From Sulfurospirillum deleyianum DSM 6946 (lineage in GTDB: Bacteria; Campylobacterota; Campylobacteria; Campylobacterales; Sulfurospirillaceae), in contig NC_013512.1 in NCBI RefSeq assembly GCF_000024885.1, forward strand, positions 2,046,001 through 2,110,000: a DNA stretch of 64,000 nucleotides. Direction: 5' to 3'. Below are positions 18,833 to 42,197 of the stretch, piece after piece (within the stretch, counting starts at the first letter, position 1; every line of letters starts with the position of its first letter). The notes under the pieces were generated by a model that was not told where the DNA came from, searched no databases, and saw only the letters and a program-made list of their open reading frames with translations. A program made the position numbers and the translations under genes.

Positions 18833-19612
18833 TTAACGCAATTTATTATTAACAAACCTCACGGTTAAAAAAACCATAATAGAAAGAATAATCATCACCG
18901 CTGCCACAGGGGCGGAGTAACTAAGCCCAAAACTGGTAAATCTATCGTAAATAAGCACAGGCGCTGTCATAGGATGATAGACCAAAATCACCACCGCACC
19001 AAACTCACCCAAACCTCGTCCCCACATCATCAAACACCCATTGACAATATCTTTTTTCGCATTGGGTAAAGAGATAGCCAAAAAGACTTTAAGAGGACTA
19101 GCCCCTAGGGTGCGTGCTACTTTTTCAAGTTTGACATCCACTTTTTTAAACCCCTCTTTCGCTCCATTTATCAAAAATGTAGCAGAGAGGAACATCATCG
19201 CTATCATAATGCCCGCTTCCGTGCCAATAAACTTGATGCCAAACAGATCAAAAAAACTCCCCAATGAGCCATGCCCAAAAGCAATTAAAAGCGCAATACC
19301 TGCAGCCGTATGAGGAATCATAATAGGAATATCAACCAAAGTTTCCAAAAAAGAGCGCCCTATAAATTCATGCCTTGCGATTAAATAAGCTAAAGGAAGC
19401 CCCGTAAGCAAAGCAAAAAGTGTTGCAAACAAAGAGACTTTCATGGTCAACAAAATGGAAGAAGAGACATCCGCTTCTTTGAGGGTTTTAAGAAGCGTAG
19501 CGGGATCATTGCCTATCATCATCTTAAATAAAGGAAGGGTTAAAAAAAGCAACATAATTGCGCCCAAAAAAACTAAAAATGTTGTAAACCAGTAGCGTTT
19601 CATAGATAGCAC
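18833..19612 (-). CDS. wtpB: tungstate/molybdate ABC transporter permease
   Basis: 259-aa permease with about six transmembrane helices. PLAYLIARHEFIGRSFLETL, DIPIMIPHTAAGIALL and the EAA loop ARTLGASPLKVFLAISLPNA with GRGLGEFGAVVI match ModB/WtpB/TupB. It overlaps the ATPase gene by 13 bp. With WtpA and WtpC it imports tungstate (or molybdate), the metal needed for the formate dehydrogenase encoded 16 kb away. Confidence 0.87.
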   Translation of the reverse strand: MLSMKRYWFTTFLVFLGAIMLLFLTLPLFKMMIGNDPATLLKTLKEADVSSSILLTMKVSLFATLFALLTGLPLAYLIARHEFIGRSFLETLVDIPIMIPHTAAGIALLIAFGHGSLGSFFDLFGIKFIGTEAGIMIAMMFLSATFLINGAKEGFKKVDVKLEKVARTLGASPLKVFLAISLPNAKKDIVNGCLMMWGRGLGEFGAVVILVYHPMTAPVLIYDRFTSFGLSYSAPVAAVMIILSIMVFLTVRFVNNKLR

Positions 19613-20583
19613 ACATCCTTTTTATGAAATCCAATGTAGATCATTTCACCACGATTGATGGAACATCCTTCATGCTCACGTTTCAACACTTTGACGAAAA
19701 ATTGCTCTTTTCCTATCGTAACAAAGAGTTTAAAATGATCGACTATTCCCATACATTCATCCAATTTTCCTTCAAAACAATAATCACACTTTAGATTGCT
19801 TTCTTTAGAAACTAAAATAGCATTGGGATCAATCGAAAAAAGCTGAGCAGAATCTTCACCCAATAATAATGATGAAAAAATATTTTTAAACCCTAAAAAT
19901 TCCGCTACTTTCAAAGAGCTTGGATGGGAGAGAACCTCATTAGCGCATCCTACTTGTTGCACCTTTCCATCCATCACAATGGCAATGCGATCTGCTAAAT
20001 ACGATGCTTCTCTAAAATTGTGCGTTACATGTAATGTTGTAAGATGATAACGTCTGTGCATCTCTTTGAGAAATTTCATAATCGCATTCCGAAAAGTAGG
20101 ATCAATGGCACTTAAAGGCTCATCTAAAAGTAAAATTTTAGGACGAGAAAAGAGTGCACGAGCAATCGCAATGCGTTGCTTTTCACCTCCTGAGAGATTA
20201 TCAATACGTCTATCTAGCAATTTTTCTAAACCTAAGAAATCCACCAAATCGTTAAACAAAGAGTCTGCATCTTCAATAAACTTATAACGTCCTGCAAAAC
20301 GGATATTTTCTCTTACGCTTAAATTTGGAAAAAGTGCAAAATCTTGATAGACAAAGCCAACCAAGCGCTCTTCGGGAGCCATATTTGTAATGTCTACTCC
20401 ATTAAACAGGAGTTTCCCGCCGATACCATGTAACCCTGCAATCGATTCTAAAATAACCGTCTTTCCCGCCCCAGAGTGCCCTAAAATAACAAAATACTCA
20501 CCCTCGCCTACATCAAAGCTAATATCATGAAGATGAAAAGCCCCTACATCACATGTAAGGGCTTGAAGGGAGAGAAAACTCAT
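19600..20583 (-). CDS. wtpC: tungstate/molybdate ABC transporter ATPase
   Basis: 327 aa. Walker A GHSGAGKTVILES, signature LSGGEKQRIAIARAL, Walker B KILLLDEPLSAID and switch His HVTHNF are intact. The roughly 110-residue C-terminal tail after residue 215 is shorter and more divergent than a full ModC Mop domain but includes two Cys (CDYCFEGKLDEC). It overlaps wtpA by 4 bp and wtpB by 13 bp, so wtpABC is one operon. Confidence 0.87.
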   Translation of the reverse strand: MSFLSLQALTCDVGAFHLHDISFDVGEGEYFVILGHSGAGKTVILESIAGLHGIGGKLLFNGVDITNMAPEERLVGFVYQDFALFPNLSVRENIRFAGRYKFIEDADSLFNDLVDFLGLEKLLDRRIDNLSGGEKQRIAIARALFSRPKILLLDEPLSAIDPTFRNAIMKFLKEMHRRYHLTTLHVTHNFREASYLADRIAIVMDGKVQQVGCANEVLSHPSSLKVAEFLGFKNIFSSLLLGEDSAQLFSIDPNAILVSKESNLKCDYCFEGKLDECMGIVDHFKLFVTIGKEQFFVKVLKREHEGCSINRGEMIYIGFHKKDVCYL

Positions 20584-21530
20584 TTACTTCCCAAAATAGA
20601 GCTATCGCCTGTAATCACAGGAGGGTTCATCGCATCTTGTCCATTTTTCTTCATAATCGCTTGTCCTTCAGCGGAGAGCACAAAGTTGACAAACGCCACC
20701 GCACCTGCTTTGTTAGCTGGGGATTTATCATTTTGAAACACACTCAAACCATACACCATTGGCGCACCCACTTGCTTGACCACTTCACCTGGTTTTTTAC
20801 CATCAATGTTAAACGAAACTGATTTGTAAAAATCTTCAAATTTTGCATTTTTGAGATTAATCTCTTCAGGCAATGAAACATATTTGAGTTTGTGTTGGTC
20901 TGCTACGGATTTGTAAATATAAAGATAGTCATACTGATGAGACTCTAAAAGTCCTAATAAATCTGTCTCTTTCGGGCGAACAATCACTTTTTTAGCATTT
21001 TCTTCGCCAATTTCATAATGGTCACCATAACCAAAAATTTTCGCATAAAGCCCCTCTTTTTTATAGTGCTTTTCTGCCAGCATGGTAACTAACATAGAAC
21101 GATACCCACATGGATCTAAATTGGGATTGGAGTGACCCACCGTAACGCCCTCACGTAAAAAAATATCAGCCCAGTTATTGCTGTTAATCTCTTTAGCAAA
21201 TTTTGATTTTTCCGTATAGGCTAAAACCATCTCATTGGTTGCAAAATGAGCATTGAATTTGGCATGATTAGGAATTAACATCGTATCAATCACTTGATAA
21301 TCCGCACTTCCCATCACATCTGCCGCACGACCTAAATCCGTTACTTTACGTGCTGCTGCCACACTGCCACTTGGCTCTCGTTGAACATCAAACTGCGGAT
21401 ATTTGGTTTCAAATACTTTTTCAATCTCCGCAAATGGTACCGAAAGGCTCCCCGCATGCAATACTACAACAGGCTCTTTTGCTAACAACAAGGATGCCGC
21501 AAGCGCACTCAATACTAAAATTTTATTCAT
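20580..21530 (-). CDS. wtpA: tungstate-binding periplasmic protein
   Basis: 316 aa with signal peptide MNKILVLSALAASLLLAKEP. VVLHAGSLSVPFAEIEKVFE, EPSGSVAAARKVTDLGRAAD and NPNLDPCGYRS are hallmarks of the WtpA family, whose octahedral oxyanion coordination includes Asp and Glu; D/E residues are present in DLG and NLDPCG. These proteins usually prefer tungstate strongly over molybdate, but the sequence alone cannot settle it. Its 131-nt leader contains a structured element also found before fdhA. Confidence 0.85.
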   Translation of the reverse strand: MNKILVLSALAASLLLAKEPVVVLHAGSLSVPFAEIEKVFETKYPQFDVQREPSGSVAAARKVTDLGRAADVMGSADYQVIDTMLIPNHAKFNAHFATNEMVLAYTEKSKFAKEINSNNWADIFLREGVTVGHSNPNLDPCGYRSMLVTMLAEKHYKKEGLYAKIFGYGDHYEIGEENAKKVIVRPKETDLLGLLESHQYDYLYIYKSVADQHKLKYVSLPEEINLKNAKFEDFYKSVSFNIDGKKPGEVVKQVGAPMVYGLSVFQNDKSPANKAGAVAFVNFVLSAEGQAIMKKNGQDAMNPPVITGDSSILGSK

Positions 21531-21745: not shown

Positions 21746-22483
21746 CTACTCTTTAAACTCTTTTTTATTACGGGGCTTTAAAAACAACTCTTTGAAACGC
21801 TCATTGGCGTAGTTTTCAATATCTTCTTGAAGCTTTCGATAATTTTCCATGTATTCACGTGCTACAGGTGTCAGTTTCGTACCCGCATCTTCACCACCAC
21901 CTTGCTTGGTTTCAACCATCACATCGTTAATATTTTTTTGCAAAATCTTAATGTGCGTCCACGCTTTTTTATAATTCATCCCAATCACTTCTGAGGCTTT
22001 AGAGATAGAACCTTCTTGCTCAATGAGCTCTAAAATCTCGGTTTTACCTTTACCAAAAAGCAGTTCACCCTCAGCATTTTCGATCCATGTTTTCGTTTTG
22101 ACATACAAACGTGGACGCTTTTTTTCAGTAAAACACCCCAAACTACAATAAGTCACATCAATATTTTTTTCTTTGAGTGTCCCTCTGATTTTTTTAAGTC
22201 CAATGCCTCCTGCTTGCGCTCTGGCATCTTTACATGTAATACGATTTTTATCATCTAAAAAAGGACTCAAACGACTCAGTGCTTCCGCATCAAACGAGCC
22301 ACCCTCAACCCGACCAAATTGACCCAAGTCACACGAATCAATGCGTATGTCCATCGCTTTAGCGCAATCGCCTACTTCACGGATAGGGCATTTTAACTTT
22401 GAGGCAATCTTATAGGCATCCGCACAATCAAGCTTGCCTTTTTCATTCAAATACTGCTGAATCAACACTTCCATCTCAGACAT
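21746..22483 (-). CDS. ModE-type regulator with duplicated N-terminal Cys domain
   Basis: 245 aa. The C-terminal half has the ModE winged helix: ILELIEQEGSISKASEVIG, MNYKKAWTHIKILQKNI and the TKQGGGEDAGTKLT loop. It lacks TOBE/Mop domains. The N-terminal half instead contains two related units, DAYKIASKLKCPIREVGDC... CDLGQFG and DARAQAGGIGLKKIRG... CSLGCF, each with Cys, perhaps a metal or redox sensor. It lies between fdhD and wtpABC on the same strand, with a 3-bp gap to fdhD, so it may control both. Confidence 0.72.
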   Translation of the reverse strand: MSEMEVLIQQYLNEKGKLDCADAYKIASKLKCPIREVGDCAKAMDIRIDSCDLGQFGRVEGGSFDAEALSRLSPFLDDKNRITCKDARAQAGGIGLKKIRGTLKEKNIDVTYCSLGCFTEKKRPRLYVKTKTWIENAEGELLFGKGKTEILELIEQEGSISKASEVIGMNYKKAWTHIKILQKNINDVMVETKQGGGEDAGTKLTPVAREYMENYRKLQEDIENYANERFKELFLKPRNKKEFKE

Positions 22484-23400: not shown

Positions 23401-25629
23401 CTAAAACGTTAACCCAACACTTAGATAGGCACTAAAAGGTGCTCCTACAATATAGGTAGGCTGTGTTGTATCCGCAGCAAGAGCATTATCTGGTGTAATA
23501 ATAGAAGCAATATAACGTTTGTTAAACACATTGATAAAGCTCAACTTGACATCAGCCGACTTAAACCCTTTGATTTTGGGCAACCTATAATCAATGTCAA
23601 AATCAACCGTTGTAAACGAAGGAATTTTTTGTGTATGATCAACATTTCCATATCTGCTTCCTGTGTATTTAACGATAGGAGTAAATTTAAAATTTTCTAT
23701 TTTATACGTCAACGCTCCTTTAACACCGTACATCGGCGCATCAGGAATTTGATCCCCCTTAATAGAACTTATACTTATTGCACTCGTCTGAAAATCTTCT
23801 GTGTAGTAGTATTGGTTATAAAAAAGGCTTGCGAGAACATCAACAGACTCACCTAAAGGACCACTCATAGCAAATTCTGCGCCATAACTCATCGCATCTA
23901 TGCTATTGGTAGGATACGCTATGCCATAGTGAGAGTCATACACATTTGCCTGTTTTCCTGTTACTTTAGTAAAAAATAGATTTGGATTATAAACAATTCC
24001 ATTAGATTTATATTTCATCCCAATATCAAAATTATCAGACAATTCTAATTTTTGTTGATCCCATAATTGTTGTAGCGTTACATTTTTTGCGACAAACTTA
24101 GCACGATTTGTGACATACGTTGGAAATAGATTGACATCATATCCGTAACTTCTAGCATAATCAAAATAGATATCAATGTTATGCGTCAGTTGATAACCTA
24201 CATACACACTGGGCAACCACTCTGTAAATGTTTTGGCATCAACACTTCCCCATTCATCAACGGTTCCTTGAGCTATCGCCGTATCATAATCAGAACTGGT
24301 CGTAGCATTAGTACCAAAGGTATAATTTTTCAACCCTGCCAATTTAAAATCAAGGTATCGAATACCTAAAGAATAACTCAACCTATCTCTCTCTCCACAA
24401 AACTCTATAAAAGGTGAATTAAACTCATGGTATTGATTCTTAGCTAAAATATTCCATCCAGCATATTGTAATTGACCTGATGCGTTAATCGTATACAGTC
24501 TTCGACTTGATGGTGGTCCTGGAGGTTCTTGTCTGCCTCTCCAATATCCCATTTTCATACTTAACTCATCGTTTAAAGGAACTTCATACTCCAAAACACC
24601 TCCATACCTATCATGGTCAATTAACCATTCGATCTCTCTTGTTTTAGCATCATTTGCAAACCAATAGTTTCCTTTATCCTTTGAATAATAGGGTTTAAAG
24701 CGCATAACAGAATCATTGACAAAACGATACTCAACGTTCGCAGTTAAAACGGTGTCTTTAAAAGATTGTTTATTCCAATCATAATAATTTGAGCTTCCCA
24801 CGCTAGAGACACGATTCCAATCTTTTTTAGCATAGGTATCCAAATCTTTCGCTTCTGCATAGCTCAATCCATAATAATTATGGTGGTTATCTTCATTGTG
24901 GATGACAAACATTTCTGTTTTAAAATTATCATTAGGTGTATAAACCGCACCTAACATCATATTTTTCCTGTCTAAATCACCTTCGCCTTTCCATTTATCG
25001 CCACTTGTTTTAGAAAAAGACCCAAAAATTGCTACATCATCCATTTTCCCCGTATCAAATCGCAAAAAACTTCTTAAGGTCTTGTCTGAACCAACGGTTT
25101 GAGCAAATTGCGTTTCCATCTCTTTTTTAGGTCTAGCGACGGTTAAATCAACTTTACCTATAAGATTTGAAAATCCAAGACTTTTATCAACAGGTGCGTA
25201 CCCTTTATAAAGATCAATACCAGAAAAATTTTCCATATCAAACATGGTTTTACCGCCACCAGGATTACCACTAATGGGCAAGGATTCTAGCATATACACA
25301 CCCCCTGGTCCTGATTGATTTTTACCCCTGATTCTTAATGGATCATGAAAAGATGTTTCATTCGAACCAAATATTTCCGCAGGTTGATAATCCACAGATG
25401 GCGACATGCCAACAACTTTCAAAGCAGACATACCAACAGGTCCACTATAAAGCTCTATTGCTTCCTTGGTAAACCCCTGCGAATTGATATTATCTTTATT
25501 ATCTGTTTCAAAAATAGCACCCCCGTCACTCTCATTTGATACAGTCACTTTCTCTAACGTATACGTATCTTGGCTGTAAAGAATACTCAATGTAGCCATT
25601 AAACTCATCAAAATAACTTTTTGCTTCAT
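23401..25629 (-). CDS. TonB-dependent outer-membrane receptor
   Basis: 742 aa. Signal peptide MKQKVILMSLMATLSILYSQ, then a TonB-box-like segment TYTLEKVTVS, a plug domain (residues about 40-170; IRGKNQSGPGGVYMLESLP) and a beta-barrel ending in Phe (LSVGLTF). It is probably first served by the small membrane protein upstream and by the dedicated TonB-ExbBD. The neighbours are ModE regulators and tungstate genes, and a ModE-like box precedes the unit. I infer a molybdate/tungstate chelate or related metallophore as ligand; iron or cobalamin chelates remain possible. Confidence 0.85.
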   Translation of the reverse strand: MKQKVILMSLMATLSILYSQDTYTLEKVTVSNESDGGAIFETDNKDNINSQGFTKEAIELYSGPVGMSALKVVGMSPSVDYQPAEIFGSNETSFHDPLRIRGKNQSGPGGVYMLESLPISGNPGGGKTMFDMENFSGIDLYKGYAPVDKSLGFSNLIGKVDLTVARPKKEMETQFAQTVGSDKTLRSFLRFDTGKMDDVAIFGSFSKTSGDKWKGEGDLDRKNMMLGAVYTPNDNFKTEMFVIHNEDNHHNYYGLSYAEAKDLDTYAKKDWNRVSSVGSSNYYDWNKQSFKDTVLTANVEYRFVNDSVMRFKPYYSKDKGNYWFANDAKTREIEWLIDHDRYGGVLEYEVPLNDELSMKMGYWRGRQEPPGPPSSRRLYTINASGQLQYAGWNILAKNQYHEFNSPFIEFCGERDRLSYSLGIRYLDFKLAGLKNYTFGTNATTSSDYDTAIAQGTVDEWGSVDAKTFTEWLPSVYVGYQLTHNIDIYFDYARSYGYDVNLFPTYVTNRAKFVAKNVTLQQLWDQQKLELSDNFDIGMKYKSNGIVYNPNLFFTKVTGKQANVYDSHYGIAYPTNSIDAMSYGAEFAMSGPLGESVDVLASLFYNQYYYTEDFQTSAISISSIKGDQIPDAPMYGVKGALTYKIENFKFTPIVKYTGSRYGNVDHTQKIPSFTTVDFDIDYRLPKIKGFKSADVKLSFINVFNKRYIASIITPDNALAADTTQPTYIVGAPFSAYLSVGLTF

Positions 25630-26435: not shown

Positions 26436-27218
26436 TTACTTAATATGCACAAACGATGGAATGCAAACAGAATACCCACATACGGTCTGTTTAAGCGCAA
26501 TGTTTGTGTTGTAAAGCTCGTTGATTAGCTCTTGTGTTATCGTTTCATGTGTATCACCATGCGCTAAAATCCTCCCTTTTTTTAAAGCATAGGTATACCC
26601 ACCCAACATCAAAGCATGTTCAGGGAAATGGGTAGATTTTAAAAAGGTATACCCCTCCTTGGAGAGGAGTATGATTGTTTCCAAAAGACGCAACTGATTG
26701 CCATAGTCTAAACCCGACACAGGCTCATCCATCACCAAGATTTTTGCCCCTTGCGCCAAAGAGCGTGCTATTAAGACCAACTGTTTTTCACCACCACTCA
26801 GCGTTTGAAAAGTGCATTTTTCCAAATGCAAAATACCCAACCGCTCCATCGCTGCATGCGCAAGGGAAATGTCTATTTTTGAGGCTCTTTTAAAGCACGA
26901 TTCAAAAGCAATGCGTCCCATGAGCACAATATCTAAAGCACAAAACGCAAACGCAACTTGTGTACTTTGAGGCACATAACTAATGTGTAAAGCACGTTCT
27001 TTAATCGAATAGTTTTTTAAAGGCTTTCCTTTGAGCATTACCTCGCCACACGTTGGATTGAGTAACCCTAAAAAAAGTTTCATTAAGGTACTTTTACCAA
27101 CCCCATTTGATCCAAGTAAAGAGACGATTGAACCCTCTTGTATGCATAAATCAACCCCTTGTAAAACCACTTTATCGTTGTAGGCAAAATGAAGATTACG
27201 TGCCTCATAAAAACTCAT
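26436..27218 (-). CDS. FecE/BtuD-type ABC transporter ATPase
   Basis: 260 aa. Walker A LGSNGVGKSTLMK, Q-loop SYVPQSTQVA, signature TLSGGEKQLVLIARSL and Walker B KILVMDEPVSGLD are intact, and the switch His is in KSTHFPEH. It belongs to the iron-siderophore/vitamin B12/MolC class of ATPases. Its start overlaps the permease stop by 4 bp. With the permease and the binding protein at 31171 it would complete a type II importer. Confidence 0.87.
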   Translation of the reverse strand: MSFYEARNLHFAYNDKVVLQGVDLCIQEGSIVSLLGSNGVGKSTLMKLFLGLLNPTCGEVMLKGKPLKNYSIKERALHISYVPQSTQVAFAFCALDIVLMGRIAFESCFKRASKIDISLAHAAMERLGILHLEKCTFQTLSGGEKQLVLIARSLAQGAKILVMDEPVSGLDYGNQLRLLETIILLSKEGYTFLKSTHFPEHALMLGGYTYALKKGRILAHGDTHETITQELINELYNTNIALKQTVCGYSVCIPSFVHIK

Positions 27219-28231
27219 ACAAATCCTTTTTTAGCATTGCGAAGTGCCAGCACAAAAATCGGTATTCCAATCAAAGATGTCGCAATCCCTATGGGAATTT
27301 CAATGTTCATAGAGATGCGACACAATGTATCTACGATGACTAAAAATAGAGCACCCAAAAGCGCACACATCGGAAGGAGCACACGATTATCCGCACCCAC
27401 CAAAAAGCGCGCGATATGCGGTATAATAAGACCTACCCAACCTATCATACCAGCAACCACAACCGTGAGTGTACTCAGCAAAGTAGCAAGTAAAATAGCG
27501 CTATTGCGTACCCATGCCACTCGCACACCCAGTGCTTTTGCATCATCATCACCAAGACTTAAAATGTTGAGGTATTTACCCATCAACGAAAGCATGATGG
27601 TACTAAAAAGTAGAGGCAGCGCTACACTGCTGAGTGTGTTCATATCGACAGCACTAAAAGAGCCCATCAGCCAGTAAACAATCGTTGGAAGCTTATTGTA
27701 CGGGTCAGCAACAAACTTGGTAACGGAGAGAAGCGCTGAGAATAAAGAACTAGAAATAACGCCACCCAAAACCAATAAAATCATTTGTGAGCTATTCTTT
27801 CCATATATTTTTGCTACGACAAGAGCGACTAAAACGGCTACAAAACCAAATAAAAACGCAAAGAGTTGTACCCCTAACCAACTATCAGAAATCATGATGC
27901 CAAGGGCTGCCCCAAACGAGGCGCCCGCTAAAACACCCAATATGCCAGGAGAGACCAATGGATTGACAAACATCGCTTGAAACGCTCCACCAGAAACTGA
28001 AAGCGCAGCCCCTACAAGAAGAACGGCTAAAATACGTGGCAAGCGAATATCAAAAACAATGTTAGTAAGCAATACCACCTCATGGGGTGTCTCACCTATG
28101 TTAAAAAACTTCCATGCCAAAAACTGCCAAAGCGTCCCTAATTCAATCTCATAACGTCCCAATGCTAAAGAGATAAGCACGCTTGTAGCAAGACTGACTA
28201 CCATTAAACTAAAAAAAAGTGAATTTTTCAT
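27215..28231 (-). CDS. FecCD/BtuC-type ABC permease
   Basis: 338 aa with about ten transmembrane helices. LPRILAVLLVGAALSVSGGA, FQAMFVNPLVSPGILGVLAG and ARFLVGADNRVLLPMCALLG are family signatures. This class imports chelates (siderophores, B12) and, in Haemophilus MolBC, bare molybdate/tungstate. It precedes the ATPase in one unit. The 173-bp gap to the upstream tonB holds no recognisable riboswitch. Confidence 0.87.
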   Translation of the reverse strand: MKNSLFFSLMVVSLATSVLISLALGRYEIELGTLWQFLAWKFFNIGETPHEVVLLTNIVFDIRLPRILAVLLVGAALSVSGGAFQAMFVNPLVSPGILGVLAGASFGAALGIMISDSWLGVQLFAFLFGFVAVLVALVVAKIYGKNSSQMILLVLGGVISSSLFSALLSVTKFVADPYNKLPTIVYWLMGSFSAVDMNTLSSVALPLLFSTIMLSLMGKYLNILSLGDDDAKALGVRVAWVRNSAILLATLLSTLTVVVAGMIGWVGLIIPHIARFLVGADNRVLLPMCALLGALFLVIVDTLCRISMNIEIPIGIATSLIGIPIFVLALRNAKKGFV

Positions 28232-28404: not shown

Positions 28405-29097
28405 TTATGAAGTGAGTTTAAAAACAACAGGGACTTTAATCTCGATCTCCTCATGGGGAGGAAACTCAAAAGGCACTGCTTCAAGCACAGCATCAATCGC
28501 ATTGCGATCCAAAAGTACTTTGCCACTAGACTTTGCGATCTTAATCGATGTAGCATCGACCATTCCATTGGTATGAATTAAAAATTGCACCACGGTCTCA
28601 CCCTCTATACCCATCTTTTTTGCCGCAGAAGGATAACGAAGGCTCTCTTGAATTTTATCTCTTACTTTAGCGAGATAGACCAAAAGCAGGTCATCCTTGC
28701 GCTTTGAGAGCGTTGTTCTCATCGGTGCTTCTTGCGCCTTTGGCGTAACTGGCAATACCTCTGCTTGCTCCTTGATAGGCACATTGGAATGTATCGTTTT
28801 TTCTACAACAAGCTCTTGGATGGGCTTTTGAATGGGAAACGTTTTTGCCGATACTTTTGGCACTTTTTTTTCAAGCTTTTGCTCAACAATAGGCTTTATT
28901 TTACGTGGAAGCTCTTGCAAAATCTCCTGATGAATCATCTCAGGTTTTAGCTCCTCTAAAAAACTCACCTCTGTGATAATTAACTCTCTTATAGGAGGCT
29001 TAGGCAGCATGTCACTTCCTATAAAAAGTGCACACCCAATCAAAACATGCACCAAAAGTGTCCCAAAAGAGGCAACAACGAAATGGGATGTTTTCAC
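28405..29097 (-). CDS. tonB: TonB energy-transducing protein
   Basis: 230 aa. One N-terminal transmembrane helix (VVASFGTLLVHVLIGCALFI), a Pro/Lys/Glu-rich periplasmic linker with PIQKPIQELVVEK-like repeats, and a C-terminal TonB domain: SLRYPSAAKKMGIEGETVVQ and AVPFEFPPHEEIEIKVPVVF. It overlaps exbD by 4 bp. Being placed with a receptor and a FecCD transporter suggests it is dedicated to that system. Confidence 0.88.
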   Translation of the reverse strand: MKTSHFVVASFGTLLVHVLIGCALFIGSDMLPKPPIRELIITEVSFLEELKPEMIHQEILQELPRKIKPIVEQKLEKKVPKVSAKTFPIQKPIQELVVEKTIHSNVPIKEQAEVLPVTPKAQEAPMRTTLSKRKDDLLLVYLAKVRDKIQESLRYPSAAKKMGIEGETVVQFLIHTNGMVDATSIKIAKSSGKVLLDRNAIDAVLEAVPFEFPPHEEIEIKVPVVFKLTS

Positions 29098-29501
29098 ACT
29101 CCCCCCTTCGTTGTCTGAATCACAAACGTGCTAATGCGATGCTTTTTACAAATGTCGATGACCTTGACCACATGCTCAAACGGCGTTTTTGCATCACTTC
29201 TCAGTACGATATGAGGCTCTTGAGTGTTCATGCACGCTATTTTTGTGTCTAACGCTTCTATGGAAAGCGCCACATCATCACAATAGAGTTCTCCCACTTC
29301 TGTGAGTGATAAAACCATAGGCTTTTTCTCATCTTTTTGGTTTTGAGCATTGGATGCATGGGGGAGCGTAAGCGGAATTTTGCCTTGGGTAACAAACGTA
29401 GCTGTCACCATAAAAATGACTAAAATAACTAAGACGATGTCCACAAAAGGAGTCATATTAATCTCAGCAATATCACTTTCATAAGAAGGTTCACGCTTCA
29501 T
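29094..29501 (-). CDS. exbD: ExbD proton-channel subunit
   Basis: 135 aa. IAEINMTPFVDIVLVILVIF holds the membrane Asp essential for proton coupling, followed by a periplasmic domain (VVLSLTEVGELYCDD, HIVLRSDAKTPFEHVVKVI). It overlaps exbB by 11 bp and tonB by 4 bp. Confidence 0.9.
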   Translation of the reverse strand: MKREPSYESDIAEINMTPFVDIVLVILVIFMVTATFVTQGKIPLTLPHASNAQNQKDEKKPMVLSLTEVGELYCDDVALSIEALDTKIACMNTQEPHIVLRSDAKTPFEHVVKVIDICKKHRISTFVIQTTKGGV

Positions 29502-29937
29502 TGAGCTGTGCCTCTTTTTGAGTTAAGAAAACCTTGACACGTCTGGTAAAATAGTTATACGCAATAACACAAGGAATAGCAACAAAAAGCCCCGTTGCCG
29601 TGGCAATCAGCGCTTCAGAGATACCTTGCATAATAGGTTGAACATCAAAAGCGTTATTAGAGCCTATCGCATGAAACGCTTGAATAATACCCAACACCGT
29701 TCCAAAAAGCCCAATAAATGGTGCGTTGTTACCAAAGGTCGCTAATATGCCCAAACGCGATTCAAGACTGAGTCGCAACGTATAATAATCCATCGTTTGA
29801 TACTTCGTTTGAATTGCGCTAAACACTAAAAAACGCTCAATCATCACCCCAACAGCAATCATACTCATAACAACCAATACCCAAAGGACAGGGTCAATCC
29901 CTAGAAGGGCAAACGATAAAAGCTTTTCACTCAGCAT
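29491..29937 (-). CDS. exbB: ExbB proton-channel subunit
   Basis: 148 aa, the short form typical of campylobacterota. Three transmembrane helices, with RLGILATFGNNAPFIGLFGT, VLGIIQAF and ALIATATGLFVAIPCVIAYN carrying the conserved Thr residues of the channel. It is the first gene of exbB-exbD-tonB-permease-ATPase. Two inverted repeats of ModE type lie upstream, so metal supply probably controls it. Confidence 0.9.
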   Translation of the reverse strand: MLSEKLLSFALLGIDPVLWVLVVMSMIAVGVMIERFLVFSAIQTKYQTMDYYTLRLSLESRLGILATFGNNAPFIGLFGTVLGIIQAFHAIGSNNAFDVQPIMQGISEALIATATGLFVAIPCVIAYNYFTRRVKVFLTQKEAQLNEA

Positions 29938-29987: not shown

Positions 29988-30016
29988 GTCGTTATTTACT
30001 TTATATAAATAACGAC
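29988..30016. promoter_or_regulatory. perfect 11-bp inverted repeat upstream of exbB
   Basis: GTCGTTATTTA and TAAATAACGAC are exact complements separated by CTTTATA, 51 bp before exbB. The CGTTAT/ATAACG cores are those of ModE sites, with a 9-bp rather than 8-bp core spacing. It is a strong operator candidate for the exbB unit. Confidence 0.65.
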
Positions 30017-30058
30017 CAATAAAACGAACAATAAGAATTAAGAGACATTGCATTATAT

Positions 30059-30082
30059 CGTAATATAATTATAAATATAACG
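30059..30082. promoter_or_regulatory. ModE-like operator between exbB and the ModE-TOBE gene
   Basis: CGTAATAT, 8-bp spacer AATTATAA, ATATAACG: 7 of 8 arm positions are symmetric and match the ModE consensus. It lies between divergent exbB and the regulator gene, so may act on both. The rest of the 29938-30284 gap has no other clear feature. Confidence 0.65.
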
Positions 30083-30284
30083 AAAATTTTAGCTTCTCTT
30101 TTTTACATGCGCTATGACTTACATCAAGAATGATGCTCAAACAAAGAGACATTGGCTCTTTCCATAAGTTCTTTAAAATCATTTTAGGATGCGTGTTCTA
30201 ATATAAATCATTGTAAAAATTGACGATTGATTTATGATTTGGTTATACTTTAGAGAACATAAAGATCGTAAGAAGGTGATACCC

Positions 30285-31058
30285 ATGTTAGAAGCACGAC
30301 TTTGGATGAAAAAAAGCAACAAAAACTACCTTGGTAAAGGACGTATTGAACTACTAGAGCGCATTCGTGAACATGGATCTATCCATGCTGCCGCTAAAGC
30401 AATGAAGATGAGTTATAAAGCTGCTTGGGACTCCGTCGATGCGATGAATAACCTCTCCGAAACACCCCTTGTCGAAAAAATCAGTGGTGGAAAAGGAGGT
30501 GGTGGGACACATTTAACAGCCAAAGGTGAAGAGGTAATAGCCGCTTTTCATAACCTTCAAGTGAAACATCAACAATTTTTAGATCTTTTTGGAAGCAGTG
30601 ATAATTTAGCAACCATTGTTCAAACACTGAATCGTCTTTCATTAAAACTTAGCGCTCGTAACCAACTTATCGGCACAATTAGCGCCATAAGAGAATCTCC
30701 TGTTAATGTACAAATAGAACTTACCATAAAGGCAGCCAATAAAATTTATGCTAGCATTACCAAAAACAGTTATCAAGAATTAGGACTCCACCTTGGCGAT
30801 AGCGCTATTGCTATTATCAAAGCCAGTTCAATTTTTCTCTCAAAAACGAAACCTACCATTGCGTGTGAAAACCTCTTACAGGGCAAAATCATTCAAATTC
30901 TCAGCGATACCTCTAGCACGGAAATCACCTTAGAACTAGAAAGTAAAAGTACGATTACAGCGACGATTTCAAATGAAGCATTCGAACCTTTAGGGTTAAA
31001 AATCAATGAAGAAACATATATTTTCTTTAAAGCATCTAACGTTATTTTAGGTATTTAA
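30285..31058 (+). CDS. modE: ModE molybdate/tungstate-responsive regulator with two TOBE domains
   Basis: 257 aa from the ATG at 30285, chosen because AGAAGGTG lies 7 bp upstream and the ModE homology begins at once; a frame 17 codons longer is possible. The N-terminal winged helix has ELLERIREHGSIHAAAKAMK, MSYKAAWDSVDAMNN and GGKGGGGTHLTAKG. Two Mop/TOBE repeats follow (RNQLIGTISAIRESPVNVQI, LLQGKIIQILSDTSSTEITL), which bind oxyanions in ModE dimers. This is the full E. coli-like architecture, unlike the TOBE-less regulator at 21746. It is divergent from exbB, across two operator-like repeats. Confidence 0.88.
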   Translation: MLEARLWMKKSNKNYLGKGRIELLERIREHGSIHAAAKAMKMSYKAAWDSVDAMNNLSETPLVEKISGGKGGGGTHLTAKGEEVIAAFHNLQVKHQQFLDLFGSSDNLATIVQTLNRLSLKLSARNQLIGTISAIRESPVNVQIELTIKAANKIYASITKNSYQELGLHLGDSAIAIIKASSIFLSKTKPTIACENLLQGKIIQILSDTSSTEITLELESKSTITATISNEAFEPLGLKINEETYIFFKASNVILGI

Positions 31059-31170: not shown

Positions 31171-32193
31171 ATGCATGTGTTCATTTTTTTTCTACTGTTC
31201 GTAACCTCACTTTTTGCAAATGAGTCGCGAACATTTTTAGATGTTAGCAACAAGCCTATTGTACTTCCTGAGCATATCACTCGCATTTATGGCTCAGCTC
31301 CACCCATTAGTTTTATGATTTATGTCATTGATGACACCCCACTGATTGGTGTTAATTCTCCACAAACAAATAAAGACAACAACAATGGTGAAAAATTTTT
31401 AAGTAAACATTTCATGGAACTTCCTATTTTAGGAGGTTGGCATGGCAACAATATTCCCAATTTAGAAGCAATTTTAGCCGCAAAGCCTGATGTAATTATC
31501 ACATGGGATACGCCACTACTCAATGAAAAAACAGCTAAAGATTTAGCACGCATTTCTATTCCTGCTCTGAAAGTAAATATTGACGATTCGCAAAACTACC
31601 CTGAGGTTTTTCGCTACCTTGGAAGAGTTATGCAAAAAGAAGAGCGTGCCAATGCACTAGCTAACATGGCGCAAACCTATTTAGATGAGCTCAAAACTTT
31701 TGTAGCAAGTATCCCTGAAAAAGAGCGTACCAAAGTCTATTACGCTGAAGGTGATTTTGGGCTTCAAACAGAATGTGACCGCTCTTTTCACTCTGAACCT
31801 TTAGCCCTAGCTGGAGGTAACTTAGTGCATAAATGCGTGCAAAACAGTGTTGTAGGATTACAAGAAGTAAGTTTTGAACAGATTATTTTATATGACCCAG
31901 AAGTTATCATCGTTCAAAATCCAACGTTTTATAAAACCGTCTTTCGTGAGAAAAAATGGGCAGTGCTCAAAGCCGTTCAAAATAAAAAAGTATACTTAGT
32001 CCCAAAATCCCCCTTTAATTGGACAGATAGACCACCTTCTTTTATGCGTATTCTTGGGGCACATTGGATTGCGAGCAAACTCTATCCCACACGCTATCCC
32101 TATAAAATTGAAGACAAAGTCAAAGCATTTTATCAGCTCTTTTTTGGTGTTGAACTCAGTAACGAAGATTTAAAAACCTATTTTAAGTTATAG
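31171..32193 (+). CDS. class III (FecB/BtuF/MolA-type) periplasmic binding protein
   Basis: 340 aa with signal peptide MHVFIFFLLFVTSLFANESR. Two lobes joined by a long helix: N-lobe (HITRIYGSAPPISFMIYVI, NLEAILAAKPDVIITWDTP) and C-lobe (RTKVYYAEGDFGLQTECDRS, FHSEPLALAGGNLVHK, VSFEQIILYDPEVIIV). This is the soluble partner of FecCD transporters; the permease and ATPase just across the divergent promoter are the obvious match. The preceding ModE gene and operator suggest a molybdenum/tungsten ligand. GGAGG precedes the start. Confidence 0.83.
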   Translation: MHVFIFFLLFVTSLFANESRTFLDVSNKPIVLPEHITRIYGSAPPISFMIYVIDDTPLIGVNSPQTNKDNNNGEKFLSKHFMELPILGGWHGNNIPNLEAILAAKPDVIITWDTPLLNEKTAKDLARISIPALKVNIDDSQNYPEVFRYLGRVMQKEERANALANMAQTYLDELKTFVASIPEKERTKVYYAEGDFGLQTECDRSFHSEPLALAGGNLVHKCVQNSVVGLQEVSFEQIILYDPEVIIVQNPTFYKTVFREKKWAVLKAVQNKKVYLVPKSPFNWTDRPPSFMRILGAHWIASKLYPTRYPYKIEDKVKAFYQLFFGVELSNEDLKTYFKL

Positions 32194-32210: not shown

Positions 32211-33992
32211 ATGATTTGCCCGATTTGTGAACGACGATGCCATGTCGAAGAAAAAGGCATTGGGATGTGTGGTCGCTATGAATGCCAAGACCATGCCATG
32301 ATAGAGCGTTTTCCAAACGCATACCTTGTTGTAGCACCCATTTCAGCAGAAACCATGCCTGTGCTGCACTTTCACCCTCGTGCCAAATTTTTGCAAATCA
32401 GCACCACTGGGTGTAATTTTGACTGTTTGGGGTGCATCTCAACCGTGGTTGCTAAGGAGATGAATGTACAAAGCCCAGCGCTTAAAAAGCTTTCGCCGAT
32501 GCAAATTATCAACAAAGCCTTAGAGCAAGCGTGTGATGGCATTGTTTTTCTTATGAATGACCCTCTCGCCTCGTTTTACACCTTTTTAGAGATTTGCACA
32601 CTGGCTAAAAAACATGGACTTTTGACAGGGTGCTCTACCAATGGTTATTTTACGCAAAAATCCCTAGCCTTACTTTCCCCTTATTTGGATTTTGTCAATA
32701 TTGGGCTTAAAGGCTTGTGCAATGATGTTTACCGTAGTTGCGGTGCGTCCAGCTACAAGCCTGTATTACGCAATATCGAGCTTTTTCACCATCAAGGTGT
32801 GCACGTTGAAGTGGCGTGCATTCATAAAACAGACAACGAAGAAGAGCTTTTAAAAATTGCCCAAACATTGGCAAACATCTCCAAAGAGATTCCCCTCCAA
32901 ATTATGCGATTTATCCCTATTGAAGATGCGAGCATCACCCTAGAGCCTTCCATCTTAGCATCTGAAACCCTTTACAAAAAACTCTTATCGCATCTTGATT
33001 ACGTCTATCTTTTCAACTCCCCTGGAACGGAGTCTTTAAATACTCACTGCCCTAAATGTGGCGCATTGATTTTTGAGCGAGATTTTTACGGTCCTATGGG
33101 CGCAAAGCTAAGAGCCATTCACCCAAACTATCACAAACACACCTGCCCAAACTGCCATCACATTCTTCCCATCAAAGGAGAGCCTGCCGAAAAAATCTTC
33201 AATGAAGATGGTTTTGAAGGCGGCTATCCACTCACAAGAGCGTTGGAAATCGTAGAGGGAACACTTGCGACACTAGGCGTAAAGAAGCAAAAAGATGTCA
33301 CCGCATGTTGGGAAAAACTCTTGCAAAATGATGGACTACGACGCTTACATGTAAACATTCAAAACTTTGACGATTATGCCAACACAATAAAGTATCTTGC
33401 AAACCTCACCCACAAAGAAACTCTGGCTCAAAAGCTCCTTGCTTACATGAGAGAAAAGATTGCCATAATCACCCAAGAATTACCCAAAATTGACGTTAAA
33501 CCACGGGTCTATTATGTGATGGGAAAACCCTTATTTGCACTCGAAGAAGAACGCCTTGAAAATCAGTTGGTTGAAATGGCAGGTGGTATCAGTGTCAATA
33601 AAGGGCTGGATTTGCAGGGAAGACCTGGAAAAAAGATATCTGTCGAAATGCTCAACGCACTCAACCCTGATATTATCTTTATCTCATCATTTTTAGACTG
33701 CCCGCTCGATGAGTTTTACATGTATTGTGAAAAACAAGGCATCGTCGTCGAAGCACTCAAACAAAAACGTATCTACACACACCTTGCACCCTGTTTTGAT
33801 TTTGGAAGCCCCCGTTGGATTTTGGGCTTGATGCACATCGCCAACATGCTCCATCCAACGCTTTACCATTTCGATGTTTTAGAAGAGGCTAAAGTCTTTT
33901 ACCGCCTCTTTTATGAAAGCACCTTTAGCCTCCCCACGCTCAATCGTTCCTTTGCAAAACCAAGCCAATATCACACAATGGTTCAAATTTAG
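32211..33992 (+). CDS. radical SAM protein fused to a cytoplasmic binding-protein lobe
   Basis: 593 aa, no signal peptide. Residues 3-25 hold a Cys cluster (CPICERRC...CGRYEC), as in AmmeMemoRadiSam/PflA-like enzymes. C68, C72 and C75 form the radical SAM CX3CX2C motif (TTGCNFDCLGC). A four-Cys zinc-ribbon follows at 280-315. From about residue 430 the chain matches the C-lobe of the neighbouring periplasmic protein: VYYVMGKPLFALEEERLENQ, LVEMAGGISV, EMLNALNPDIIFIS and a C-terminal VFYRLFYE helix. The binding lobe is therefore cytoplasmic. It begins 18 bp after the binding-protein gene and is probably cotranscribed. I infer a role in modifying or releasing the imported metal chelate; no characterised homologue of this fusion is known to me. 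Confidence 0.8.
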   Translation: MICPICERRCHVEEKGIGMCGRYECQDHAMIERFPNAYLVVAPISAETMPVLHFHPRAKFLQISTTGCNFDCLGCISTVVAKEMNVQSPALKKLSPMQIINKALEQACDGIVFLMNDPLASFYTFLEICTLAKKHGLLTGCSTNGYFTQKSLALLSPYLDFVNIGLKGLCNDVYRSCGASSYKPVLRNIELFHHQGVHVEVACIHKTDNEEELLKIAQTLANISKEIPLQIMRFIPIEDASITLEPSILASETLYKKLLSHLDYVYLFNSPGTESLNTHCPKCGALIFERDFYGPMGAKLRAIHPNYHKHTCPNCHHILPIKGEPAEKIFNEDGFEGGYPLTRALEIVEGTLATLGVKKQKDVTACWEKLLQNDGLRRLHVNIQNFDDYANTIKYLANLTHKETLAQKLLAYMREKIAIITQELPKIDVKPRVYYVMGKPLFALEEERLENQLVEMAGGISVNKGLDLQGRPGKKISVEMLNALNPDIIFISSFLDCPLDEFYMYCEKQGIVVEALKQKRIYTHLAPCFDFGSPRWILGLMHIANMLHPTLYHFDVLEEAKVFYRLFYESTFSLPTLNRSFAKPSQYHTMVQI

Positions 33993-34064: not shown

Positions 34065-34626
34065 ATGGAACAAAAGTTGGCTTTTTGGGACAACATGGCG
34101 AAGCGTTATCCACGTTTTAATGACGCATCAATAAGCAAAGATATCCATCCTATCTTAAACTGGTGTCACGGCCATTGATGTTTCAGAGGGTATGCTAAAA
34201 GCGCTCAATGAAGATGCTATCCAAACAGGCGTGTCGCACCATGTCCAAACCCATCAAAGCGATTGGGGTACTTTGGCGCTGACAACACAATATGACATTG
34301 TCATCGCTTCCATGACTCCTGCGATTAATAACGTACAAAAAATTGAAAAAATACTGGGTGCGAGTAAACAACTTGGCATTTACGTCGGCTGGGAAAAATA
34401 CCGCACCAACAAACTTGTAGAAGCTTCAGTCAAAGCGCATACACTCAAAGAAGAGGAATACTCGTTTGAAGAAGCCAAGGAGTATGCTTACGAACAGCTT
34501 GGTCGAAAAGAGCTCACCCCTAATGATACCATCATCGAATCTATCCTCATCAAGCACATGCAAAACGATCAAGTTATCGTGAAAACACAAGCCGAAAAAG
34601 GGGTTGTGTTGTGGAAAGCAACTTAA
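34065..34626 (+). pseudogene. SAM-dependent methyltransferase, broken by internal deletion
   Basis: From the ATG at 34065 the frame reads MEQKLAFWDNMAKRYPRFND, a typical methyltransferase start, then stops near 34177. In another frame TGVTAIDVSEGMLKALNEDA begins at once and continues, intact, to 34626. The missing piece is motif I (the GxGxG SAM-binding loop) plus a frameshift, so a deletion removed the cofactor site. The downstream half keeps YDIVIASMTPAINNVQKIEK. It follows the radical SAM fusion gene and may once have belonged to that pathway. Confidence 0.8.
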
Positions 34627-39616: not shown

Positions 39617-40327
39617 TTATAAAACAATTTCATCCAAATTACGTCTAATTCGCTGACTCAAAGGTTTTCTGTCCGTTTGAATGACCGCACTCACACGATG
39701 GGCACTCGCAACTTTTTGCGAAGGAGCAACATCTAAATAGAGACGTTCAAAATCACTAAAGGCTTTTAAAACAATGGCGGTATTTTTATAGAAAACACTC
39801 TTTTCATGCGTAAAGAGAAGCTCTGCAAAATCATCAATACACTCATTTAAAATCTCAGCAAAAAAGGTATGAGCTAAGTTTAAACTCTCTTCATCTCCTT
39901 CAATCCCTGATTCAATAAGCGTTGACATAAGTCGAAACGCAAAAACCATTTGATCTTCAGAGTCATTACACAAAGGCTTGTTACGTCTAAATTTAGAACG
40001 AAGCACTAAACCAGCAGCTTTCACTCGCTTTTGACCATCATCTCTTCCCTCATCATAATACGAAGCACTCAAAGGGATAAAAGAGCTCTCAGGTGAGACA
40101 AAAACTTCATCATACTCCGCTCTTAATGCGCTAAAACCCTCTGTTTTAATCTTCTCTTGAATTGCCCCTAACGCTTCATAACTGCCCTCATCCAAAGGAT
40201 TGGATAGAAAAATTGGAAGCAGCGTTTCTACATCTTTGTACCCTTCATCACTGGAAGAAAAATCTAACATTTTCGCAAAAAAAATGTAGTACAGTGAACG
40301 GGCTTGATTGATTGCTTTTTTATCCAT
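39617..40327 (-). CDS. TorD-family chaperone for formate dehydrogenase
   Basis: 236 aa, all-helical, no signal. ARSLYYIFFAKMLDFSSSDE and EYDEVFVSPESSFIPLSASY fit the TorD/DmsD family, which binds the TAT signal and apo-enzyme of molybdoenzymes until the cofactor is inserted. The first codons overlap the ferredoxin gene by 8 bp. Its client is presumably FdhA, two genes downstream. Confidence 0.83.
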   Translation of the reverse strand: MDKKAINQARSLYYIFFAKMLDFSSSDEGYKDVETLLPIFLSNPLDEGSYEALGAIQEKIKTEGFSALRAEYDEVFVSPESSFIPLSASYYDEGRDDGQKRVKAAGLVLRSKFRRNKPLCNDSEDQMVFAFRLMSTLIESGIEGDEESLNLAHTFFAEILNECIDDFAELLFTHEKSVFYKNTAIVLKAFSDFERLYLDVAPSQKVASAHRVSAVIQTDRKPLSQRIRRNLDEIVL

Positions 40328-42017
40328 TTTTAACCTCTTTCATCTCGGTTTCCATATGCGCTCTAAACATCACTTTAGGTTTACAATCCGCACAACAATA
40401 AAGCGTTCTAAGCTTCACATCATCTCCCATAAAAAGTGGGGTCATAATGGCAACAATTTTTTCAACCGATTTGCGTGTAGCAAACTCTTTCCCACACTCC
40501 ACACAGGCGAAAAGCTCATCGTGCGCCATAATGCGCTGTGAAAACCAGCTTGGCTTGAGATGGATTTCATCTTTGATTACATGTAAACAATCTTTTTCAG
40601 GACAGGTCACTTCACAATAGCCACAGTTGGTACAAATCGAAGCGTTAAAACGAAGACTGTTATCCTCAGGATGTGCGGTTAAAGCCCTGACATTACAGGC
40701 TCCCACGCAACTTAAACAGAGCGTACATTTATCGGTATCAATACTCATGTCACCATAATGCACATGCTCACCCGTCTTCACCACACCCAAATCCTCTTCA
40801 CCCACCACATGGGCTAAACGTGCGGAAAAAATTTCACGTTTACGAAGCCCTGCCTCATTAATACCATAACAGCACTCAGGAATACTCTGCAAGGTTTCAA
40901 AAACAGAGGCTAACTCTTCGGTGGTTTCACACACATAAATGGCTTTTTTATGGTACTTTTTCTCAAAAATCTCATTTAAGATACGAATAACATCGCCTGT
41001 ACCTTTAGAGATAAAATCGGTATAAAAAACAATGGGATTACCACTGGTTTGAAGTAAATTCAGCAAATGCGCCTCATGTAAATATTTCTCCCCTTCAATC
41101 ATCAAAGGAAGCACACCCTCACGAAGCGGAATATCAATCACGCCTAAATCCATCTTATTCGGAATAATCAAGGCAATCGATTCTCTAAAATAATCACTCA
41201 AATGGGTAAACGCAAGGCGTGGCATCTGCGTATAATCAAGCGCACCACTAGGACACACACTCACACAGCCACCACAGCCGTGACAATCAATGTGTGAGAA
41301 AACCAAATGCTTGGTCTCGTCCTCTTTTAAAATGGCAACCGTGGGGCACACCTCCGCACACTTCCCACAAATCTCCTCACGGCGTTCATGATACTGGCAA
41401 ATGGAAGGATCATAACTGATGTAGTTTTTATAGTGATACTCACCCGTTCGCTCACGAAGGGTTTTTAACGCTTCTTCTAATCCTATCACAGCGGGGTCAT
41501 ACACACCACTTTGCTTCATGGCAAACTTCGGAGCATTCCACCAAAGCACTTGATCACACTCTAATTCTAAGAGTTCGTCCTCTTTTTTAAGCGTTACATG
41601 TAAAGCACCTATATGCCCATTGAGGTCTAAAATCATTGAAGGAGAAAGTAACATGACGGTAAACATTTCTTCACTTAAATCGCTCTTGAGTGCTTCATGC
41701 TCTGATTCATCTGTTACGATCAGTAACTTCTTTCCCACTTCTTGGCTATAATCCACATCTTGCGCAAAATCAAACCCAACAGAGCGTATCGCATAGAGTT
41801 TCGCAACATTCGTGATTTTGTGAGCAATGCTATCTTCTGATTGCGCCACATAAAAATTGATTTCAGGCGCATAAATAAGAGCCTCGGCTTCAGGATAATT
41901 CGCAACAAGAAAATCACCTTTACAGGGGGTTTTCACCCATTCTATTGTCTCATCAAGGGGAAAATCAATACCAACGGTATCGTAAAATGCGTACTCTTTT
42001 TGCATAAGTTTGTCCAT
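40320..42017 (-). CDS. multi-cluster 4Fe-4S ferredoxin-domain protein of fdh operon
   Basis: 565 aa, cytoplasmic. Two ferredoxin pairs are visible: CGKCAEVCPTVAIL with CHGCGGCVSVCPSGAL (residues about 210-260) and CTLCLSCVGACNVRAL with CTNCGYCEVTCPEKDC (about 430-490), plus two CxxC pairs near the end (CVEC, CCADC). This protein type heads fdh operons in Campylobacter and relatives; an electron-transfer or sulfur/Fe-S role in assembly is likely but not proven. It is first in the operon, 74 bp from a near-perfect ModE site. Confidence 0.8.
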   Translation of the reverse strand: MDKLMQKEYAFYDTVGIDFPLDETIEWVKTPCKGDFLVANYPEAEALIYAPEINFYVAQSEDSIAHKITNVAKLYAIRSVGFDFAQDVDYSQEVGKKLLIVTDESEHEALKSDLSEEMFTVMLLSPSMILDLNGHIGALHVTLKKEDELLELECDQVLWWNAPKFAMKQSGVYDPAVIGLEEALKTLRERTGEYHYKNYISYDPSICQYHERREEICGKCAEVCPTVAILKEDETKHLVFSHIDCHGCGGCVSVCPSGALDYTQMPRLAFTHLSDYFRESIALIIPNKMDLGVIDIPLREGVLPLMIEGEKYLHEAHLLNLLQTSGNPIVFYTDFISKGTGDVIRILNEIFEKKYHKKAIYVCETTEELASVFETLQSIPECCYGINEAGLRKREIFSARLAHVVGEEDLGVVKTGEHVHYGDMSIDTDKCTLCLSCVGACNVRALTAHPEDNSLRFNASICTNCGYCEVTCPEKDCLHVIKDEIHLKPSWFSQRIMAHDELFACVECGKEFATRKSVEKIVAIMTPLFMGDDVKLRTLYCCADCKPKVMFRAHMETEMKEVKNG

Positions 42018-42090
42018 TAAGTGGTAAATTATAATTGACCGAATTGTAAAATCATTTGGATTAAACGGTTCTTAATAATACAAAAAGACT

Positions 42091-42115
42091 CGTTATATTA
42101 TAATTGTATATAACG
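42091..42115. promoter_or_regulatory. ModE-like operator of the fdh operon
   Basis: CGTTATAT and ATATAACG are perfect complements with a 9-bp spacer, the best ModE-type core in the window. It lies 74 bp before the first fdh operon gene and 83 bp before the divergent ligand-binding protein. Confidence 0.7.
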
Positions 42116-42197
42116 ATATATAGCCCCTTTGCTCCTTAGCTTTCGTTAATCTTCTTCCGCTATAATTGAAGATATCTCTTTCATAAGGTATGGTGTT

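Follow-up and report, generated by a model that had tools for sequence, protein, structure and literature searches.

The DNA analyzed here (the window, 64,000 nucleotides) was taken from the Sulfurospirillum deleyianum DSM 6946 genome, which consists of one contig of 2,306,351 bases. Among importer and regulator genes, the window encodes a protein in which a radical SAM domain of the PflA/AmrS type is joined to part of a class III binding protein, namely its C-lobe, its backbone helix and an N-lobe in reduced form (Table 1). The product of the gene upstream of this fusion matches PDB entry 4PAG, from S. deleyianum DSM 6946, across its whole mature length. Together with the FecCD permease and ATPase, this binding protein gives the S. 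deleyianum ABC genes the makeup of MolBCA, a type II importer of molybdate and tungstate whose class III binding protein is MolA (PMC4031551). The pointers to the cargo of the neighboring importer are its ModE context and a distant similarity to MolA. The TonB-like protein had no family match in the scan with the ExbB/ExbD/TolQ/TolR models and was assigned by position and sequence character.

A scan with the E. coli ModE consensus found a third, near-perfect ModE-like palindrome at 42090–42116 (none expected by chance) in addition to the two between exbB and modE. This palindrome lies upstream of a 565-aa minus-strand gene (40320–42017), for which no strong NCBIfam match was found, and near formate dehydrogenase genes located downstream of the fusion cluster. 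A second ModE-like protein (21746–22483), with an unusual N-terminal half before the ModE domain and without Mop repeats, is encoded next to FdhD and WtpABC.

Table 1. Features of the S. deleyianum fusion cluster and its surroundings (positions within the window).
Feature	Position	Strand	Evidence
WtpABC-type tungstate/molybdate importer	18833..21530	-	WtpA above cut-off; WtpB and WtpC top-scoring but below cut-off
TonB-dependent outer-membrane receptor	23401..25629	-	PF00593, 81.9 bits
FecCD-type permease and its ABC ATPase	26436..28231	-	PF01032, 260 bits; PF00005, 107 bits
ExbB, ExbD and TonB-like genes, divergent from modE	28405..29937	-	Below ExbB/ExbD/TolQ/TolR model cut-offs
ModE-like palindrome between exbB and modE	29989..30015	.	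Expected 0.00 by chance
Second ModE-like palindrome between exbB and modE	30058..30083	.	Expected 0.00 by chance
ModE-type regulator, two Mop/TOBE repeats	30234..31058	+	TIGR00638 and TIGR00637 over cut-off
Class III periplasmic binding protein (signal peptide present; structure 4PAG)	31171..32193	+	PF01497; PDB match E 9e-223
Radical SAM/binding-protein-lobe fusion, 593 aa	32211..33992	+	ORF, Pfam, BLASTP, model, profile-profile
Radical SAM partial TIM barrel, residues 59-268, CX3CX2C C68/C72/C75	32385..33014	+	PF04055; PFL-AE fold, Z 17.8
Zinc-ribbon-like segment, C280/C283/C312/C315	33015..33185	+	Cys invariant; also in unfused and AmrS rows
Helical remnant at the place of the binding-protein N-lobe, residues 339-385	33225..33365	+	Chains of unfused relatives stop about here
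Backbone helix region, residues 386-430, least conserved	33366..33500	+	Model, segment identities
Class III binding-protein C-lobe, residues 431-570, most conserved between phyla	33501..33920	+	Pfam, BLASTP, model, profile-profile
Degraded class I methyltransferase gene, intact in other Sulfurospirillum loci read	34066..34626	+	Two deletions

Membership of the fusion in the radical SAM superfamily is supported by its Pfam Radical_SAM match (PF04055, residues 64–219, 63.4 bits against a cut-off of 29.5), its CX3CX2C motif and its partial TIM barrel. The first-pass annotation had described this motif, an N-terminal cysteine cluster and a zinc ribbon, and all three hold in the fusions compared: C3/C6/C10/C20, N-terminal to the barrel, are invariant in 14 of 14 fusions, and C68/C72/C75 and C280/C283/C312/C315 show no variation among the same proteins. 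Pfam Peripla_BP_2 (PF01497) also matched above its cut-off (residues 385–494, 29.3 bits against 27.5), so both domains of the annotated fusion were recovered by HMM search; an AraC helix-turn-helix was absent from the Pfam matches. BLASTP against the upstream binding protein aligned fusion residues 362–568 at 25% identity (E 3e-15), and aligning a profile built from 14 fusions to one built from 20 binding proteins gave a probability of 99.8% (E 5.7e-28), bearing out the homology that had been read from motif similarities to the C-lobe. No hydrophobic leader or export signal was found at the N-terminus of the fusion (MICPICERRC), in agreement with the annotation. Given the domain and fold evidence and the missing leader, the annotated idea that a periplasmic recognition module was put to new use in the cytoplasm, as part of a radical SAM enzyme, also stands.

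AlphaFold2, run on an alignment of 49 rows, of which 14 were fusions, 15 radical SAM sequences (unfused or AmrS), and 20 C-lobes of binding proteins, produced a model of the fusion with a pLDDT of 88.5 and a pTM of 0.89. This model superseded a first one built from 10 rows, which was too poor (pLDDT 63). Homologs of either half had been added to the alignment manually, which gives the fold of each half good support; for the arrangement of the halves, the model draws on the 14 fused rows only. Model residues 31–267 matched the PFL activating enzyme over 222 residues at 2.9 Å, and residues 344–577 superposed on 4PAG with Z 18.3 over 219 residues, the match beginning at 4PAG chain residue 42. The same span also matched YiuA (Z 19.1), 4HN9 (18.9), 4OVK (18.5), CeuE (17.6), and MolA (16.7). 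The C-terminal fold is thus related to binding proteins, as annotated, while the boundary set at about residue 430 has to move: the binding-protein part starts near residue 340 and includes reduced N-lobe helices and the backbone helix. Residues 339–385 were modeled as helices only, and the N-lobe sheet that would belong to a two-lobed cleft is absent. Since the order past residue ∼340 is helices, then backbone helix, then full C-lobe, an entire binding protein was probably fused first, and its N-lobe eroded afterwards.

Class III binding proteins such as 4PAG, 4OVK, CeuE, YiuA, and MolA (PF01497) therefore share with the fusion the fold of the C-lobe and backbone helix (Z 16–19), whereas the fusion is cytoplasmic, retains the N-lobe only as a helical remnant, and carries other motifs. 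The conserved YYAEGxxGLxTECDxSxH and PFNWxDRPPS of the binding proteins are replaced in the fused lobes by other, equally fixed motifs (YYxMGKPLF...RxENQ, GRPG, DFGxPRW, and NRSFxKP), and for this reason the ligand may differ. Btr (NF049932), an AraC-type regulator with a two-lobed domain, is a precedent for moving a class III binding-protein module into the cytoplasm, whereas the fusion places one lobe on an enzyme.

The fusion is under strong purifying selection, with a dN/dS against its nearest relative (89% identical) of 0.077 overall and 0.042 in the C-lobe. Between Sulfurospirillum and Bacillota, identity is 59% in the C-lobe, 55% in the radical SAM core, and 25% in the backbone helix; the binding proteins of the operons are 33% identical between the same groups. 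The low dN/dS and the between-phyla identities together indicate that the lobe is as constrained as the catalytic domain. This bears on the possibility that the enzyme is a protein activase, its radical SAM domain placing a radical or a modification on a protein partner and its lobe serving as a metal- or ligand-sensing switch or as an interaction domain. The PFL activating enzyme is indeed among the closest solved folds (Z 17.8), and an activase family scores against the fusion; we nevertheless regard an activase role as very improbable, given that conservation of the lobe above the catalytic core exceeds what a passive sensor would be expected to show and that no glycyl-radical enzyme gene was recognized beside the fusion.

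In phylogenetic analysis the 25 fused lobes from Sulfurospirillum and Bacillota formed one clade (support 99), as did the radical SAM parts of the fusions (support 99). The lobe had been annotated as a copy of the binding protein encoded next to it, a view that does not survive the single clade across two phyla; a topology that placed the fused lobes of Sulfurospirillum with the upstream binding proteins of this genus, as recent copies of these, was rejected (p-AU 3e-34). An older relationship of the fused lobes as a whole to the upstream binding-protein lineage was not rejected (p-AU 0.39). The fusion likely moved between the phylum of Sulfurospirillum and Bacillota by transfer.

Fusions were present in 10 of 24 Sulfurospirillum genomes, and no further ones were recognized in a draw of 397 Campylobacterota. 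A 705-residue frame in one genome (G387), considered as another fusion, proved to be a normal 353-aa binding protein. An exact-pattern scan of 85,000 species genomes returned six loci, in Sulfurospirillum and Desulfotruncus, the fusion of Desulfotruncus arcticus being 57% identical; the scan is not a census, since its patterns are absent from some Bacillota fusions. The class of D. arcticus had the fusion in 10 of 113 genomes and a draw from Bacillota in 5 of 398, most Bacillota examined being without it. A plasmid search returned separate halves only, with no fusion.

Among known families, the radical SAM part most resembles AmrS (TIGR04337), with which its N-terminal Cys cluster, CX3CX2C barrel, and C-terminal zinc-ribbon-like segment align end to end. 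The fusion nevertheless scores only 111.1 bits with this model against a cut-off of 220, falls outside AmrS in the tree (support 100), and carries the extra lobe. Nine unfused proteins, ∼30–37% identical to the radical SAM part of the fusion and ending near residue 340, formed with the fusions a clade separate from AmrS (support 100). Nearly all of the nine are encoded near a binding protein, FecCD permease or ATPase, and coupling to type II importers therefore predates the fusion or exists apart from it. Most also have a partner of ∼375–416 aa, and one is found with DUF364 and a methyltransferase. Three members of the 375–416 aa partner family were tested and gave no Pfam match. This partner is encoded directly after the unfused gene in eight loci (L092, L093, L094, L096, L098, L101, L102, and L108).

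Each of the 10 Sulfurospirillum loci has a methyltransferase gene adjoining the fusion. The S. deleyianum copy is degraded, one of the two deletions falling in the SAM-binding region, and a methylation step would thus be either dispensable or carried out by a paralogue elsewhere. An intact paralogue (45% identity) lies at 817 kb of the S. deleyianum genome, in a second cluster (808.5–826.5 kb; L138 2741–9448) that contains ModD-like, ModE, FmdE-like, ATPase, permease, and binding-protein genes and adjoins another formate dehydrogenase. In Sulfurospirillum cavolei (L070 7213–10596), methyltransferase genes flank the fusion on both sides. Truncated-globin and luciferase-like monooxygenase genes occur within the ModE/TonB cluster of locus L071 (3877–5453 and 8268–8837), with similar genes in other Sulfurospirillum (L072–L074); the S. 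deleyianum cluster is without them.

Gene order around the Bacillota fusions follows a recurrent pattern of permease, ATPase, binding protein, (DUF364), methyltransferase, and fusion. A class I methyltransferase is adjacent, or one gene off (L106), in 14 of 15 loci, and in the remaining one (L127) a TrmO-domain gene, likewise from a methyltransferase family, begins only a few bases from the fusion. The partner methyltransferases of Sulfurospirillum and Bacillota belong to two different subfamilies. A FecCD permease and ATPase are present in 13 of the 15 loci, and DUF364 in 10. ModABC, MoeA, or FmdE genes are often close by: ModA scored over its cut-off beside L103, L120, L123, and L127, MoeA-like genes adjoin L105 and L123, FmdE and MOSC genes lie beside L104, and FmdE lies beside L124. 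Against a Mo/W link, the stretch read contained no Mo gene in some loci, and L126 and L103 lie next to zinc-uptake-like genes. TrmO-domain and FmdE proteins were seen to follow the fusion in L123 (10476–11276), L127 (10462–11307), L124 (7162–8558), and L125 (10904–12209), the proteins of L123 and L125 combining the TrmO domain with an FmdE-like part. The Mo/W theme around the fusion thus reappears independently in Bacillota, a conclusion that these loci support, and the setting in chelate-importer operons suggested by the S. deleyianum window recurs in the genome survey.

Another reading concerns tetrapyrroles: similarity to BtuF/BtuC, IsdE, and heme systems is likewise seen in the binding protein and permease, and truncated-globin genes occur in Sulfurospirillum clusters. 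Heme or a corrinoid would then be imported, and the fusion and methyltransferase would remodel or open the ring, a reading for which the radical SAM methyltransferase ChuW, which acts in anaerobic heme breakdown, also counts. We consider such a role improbable, because regulatory and neighbor evidence favors Mo/W in both phyla and because the radical SAM part is PflA/AmrS-like rather than HemN-like.

DUF364/DUF4213 proteins (Dhaf4260, PMC2954201) share with the fusion a neighborhood of Mo-, W-, or V-linked importers, as partners and not as relatives of it; their genes have previously been tied to W, Mo, and V transport, and a role in the synthesis of flavin-, pterin-, or siderophore-like chelators was suggested for the proteins (PMC2954201). 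It is conceivable that the fusion works with the methyltransferase and DUF364 to synthesize or modify a small metallophore, which the cell would secrete and take up again; the C-lobe would then recognize the ligand under construction and not an imported chelate. A methyltransferase and DUF364 suit ligand synthesis as well as breakdown, and the conserved site of the fused lobe is its own, differing from that of the importer's binding protein. We rate biosynthesis as a serious rival of rather low probability: no exporter or assembly-line enzyme was recognized in the annotated stretches, where part of the neighbors were tested, and loci such as L107 and L104 pair the fusion with a methyltransferase only. 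Modification of the ligand, release of the metal, and biosynthesis of the chelator would look alike at the level of sequence.

The fusion sits in Mo/W-linked uptake operons in two phyla, and so it may well process the chelate that is imported. We see close to an even chance that it is a cytoplasmic enzyme handling a Mo/W-type metal chelate after import. From the computed architecture, constraint, single clade, and operon partners, we infer the following cleft, ligand, and chemistry for such an enzyme. The binding protein and type II ABC importer would bring the chelate in, helped in Sulfurospirillum by an outer-membrane receptor and TonB. Lacking its partner lobe, the C-lobe may position the chelate, or the ligand without metal, at the opening of the radical SAM barrel, where a 5′-deoxyadenosyl radical would modify or break the organic ligand. 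The partner methyltransferase may then cap the ligand, methylation weakening chelation, e.g., by catechol oxygens. Mo or W would thereby be freed for molybdopterin enzymes such as the neighboring formate dehydrogenase.

Open-licence papers on radical SAM enzymes with FecCD, PF01497, AmmeMemoRadiSam, or TonB/ModE metallophores yielded no description of the fusion, and none was found in the open-licence literature for metal removal from an imported Mo/W chelate in anaerobes. The radical SAM family and the lobe are themselves of known kinds; a single binding-protein lobe attached to such an enzyme is, against this literature, new. More broadly, we regard it as plausible, at somewhat less than an even chance, that the lobe and barrel jointly form the substrate cleft of a new enzyme class that processes or builds a dedicated Mo/W metallophore in anaerobes and that constitutes, with its unfused sisters, an importer-coupled radical SAM family. 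The fusion offers a soluble, conserved candidate enzyme, with partners, a regulator, and a solved importer binding protein, in which the lobe of a transport protein has been turned into an enzyme domain, and through it a whole AmrS-like radical SAM group without known function is now tied to chelate import.
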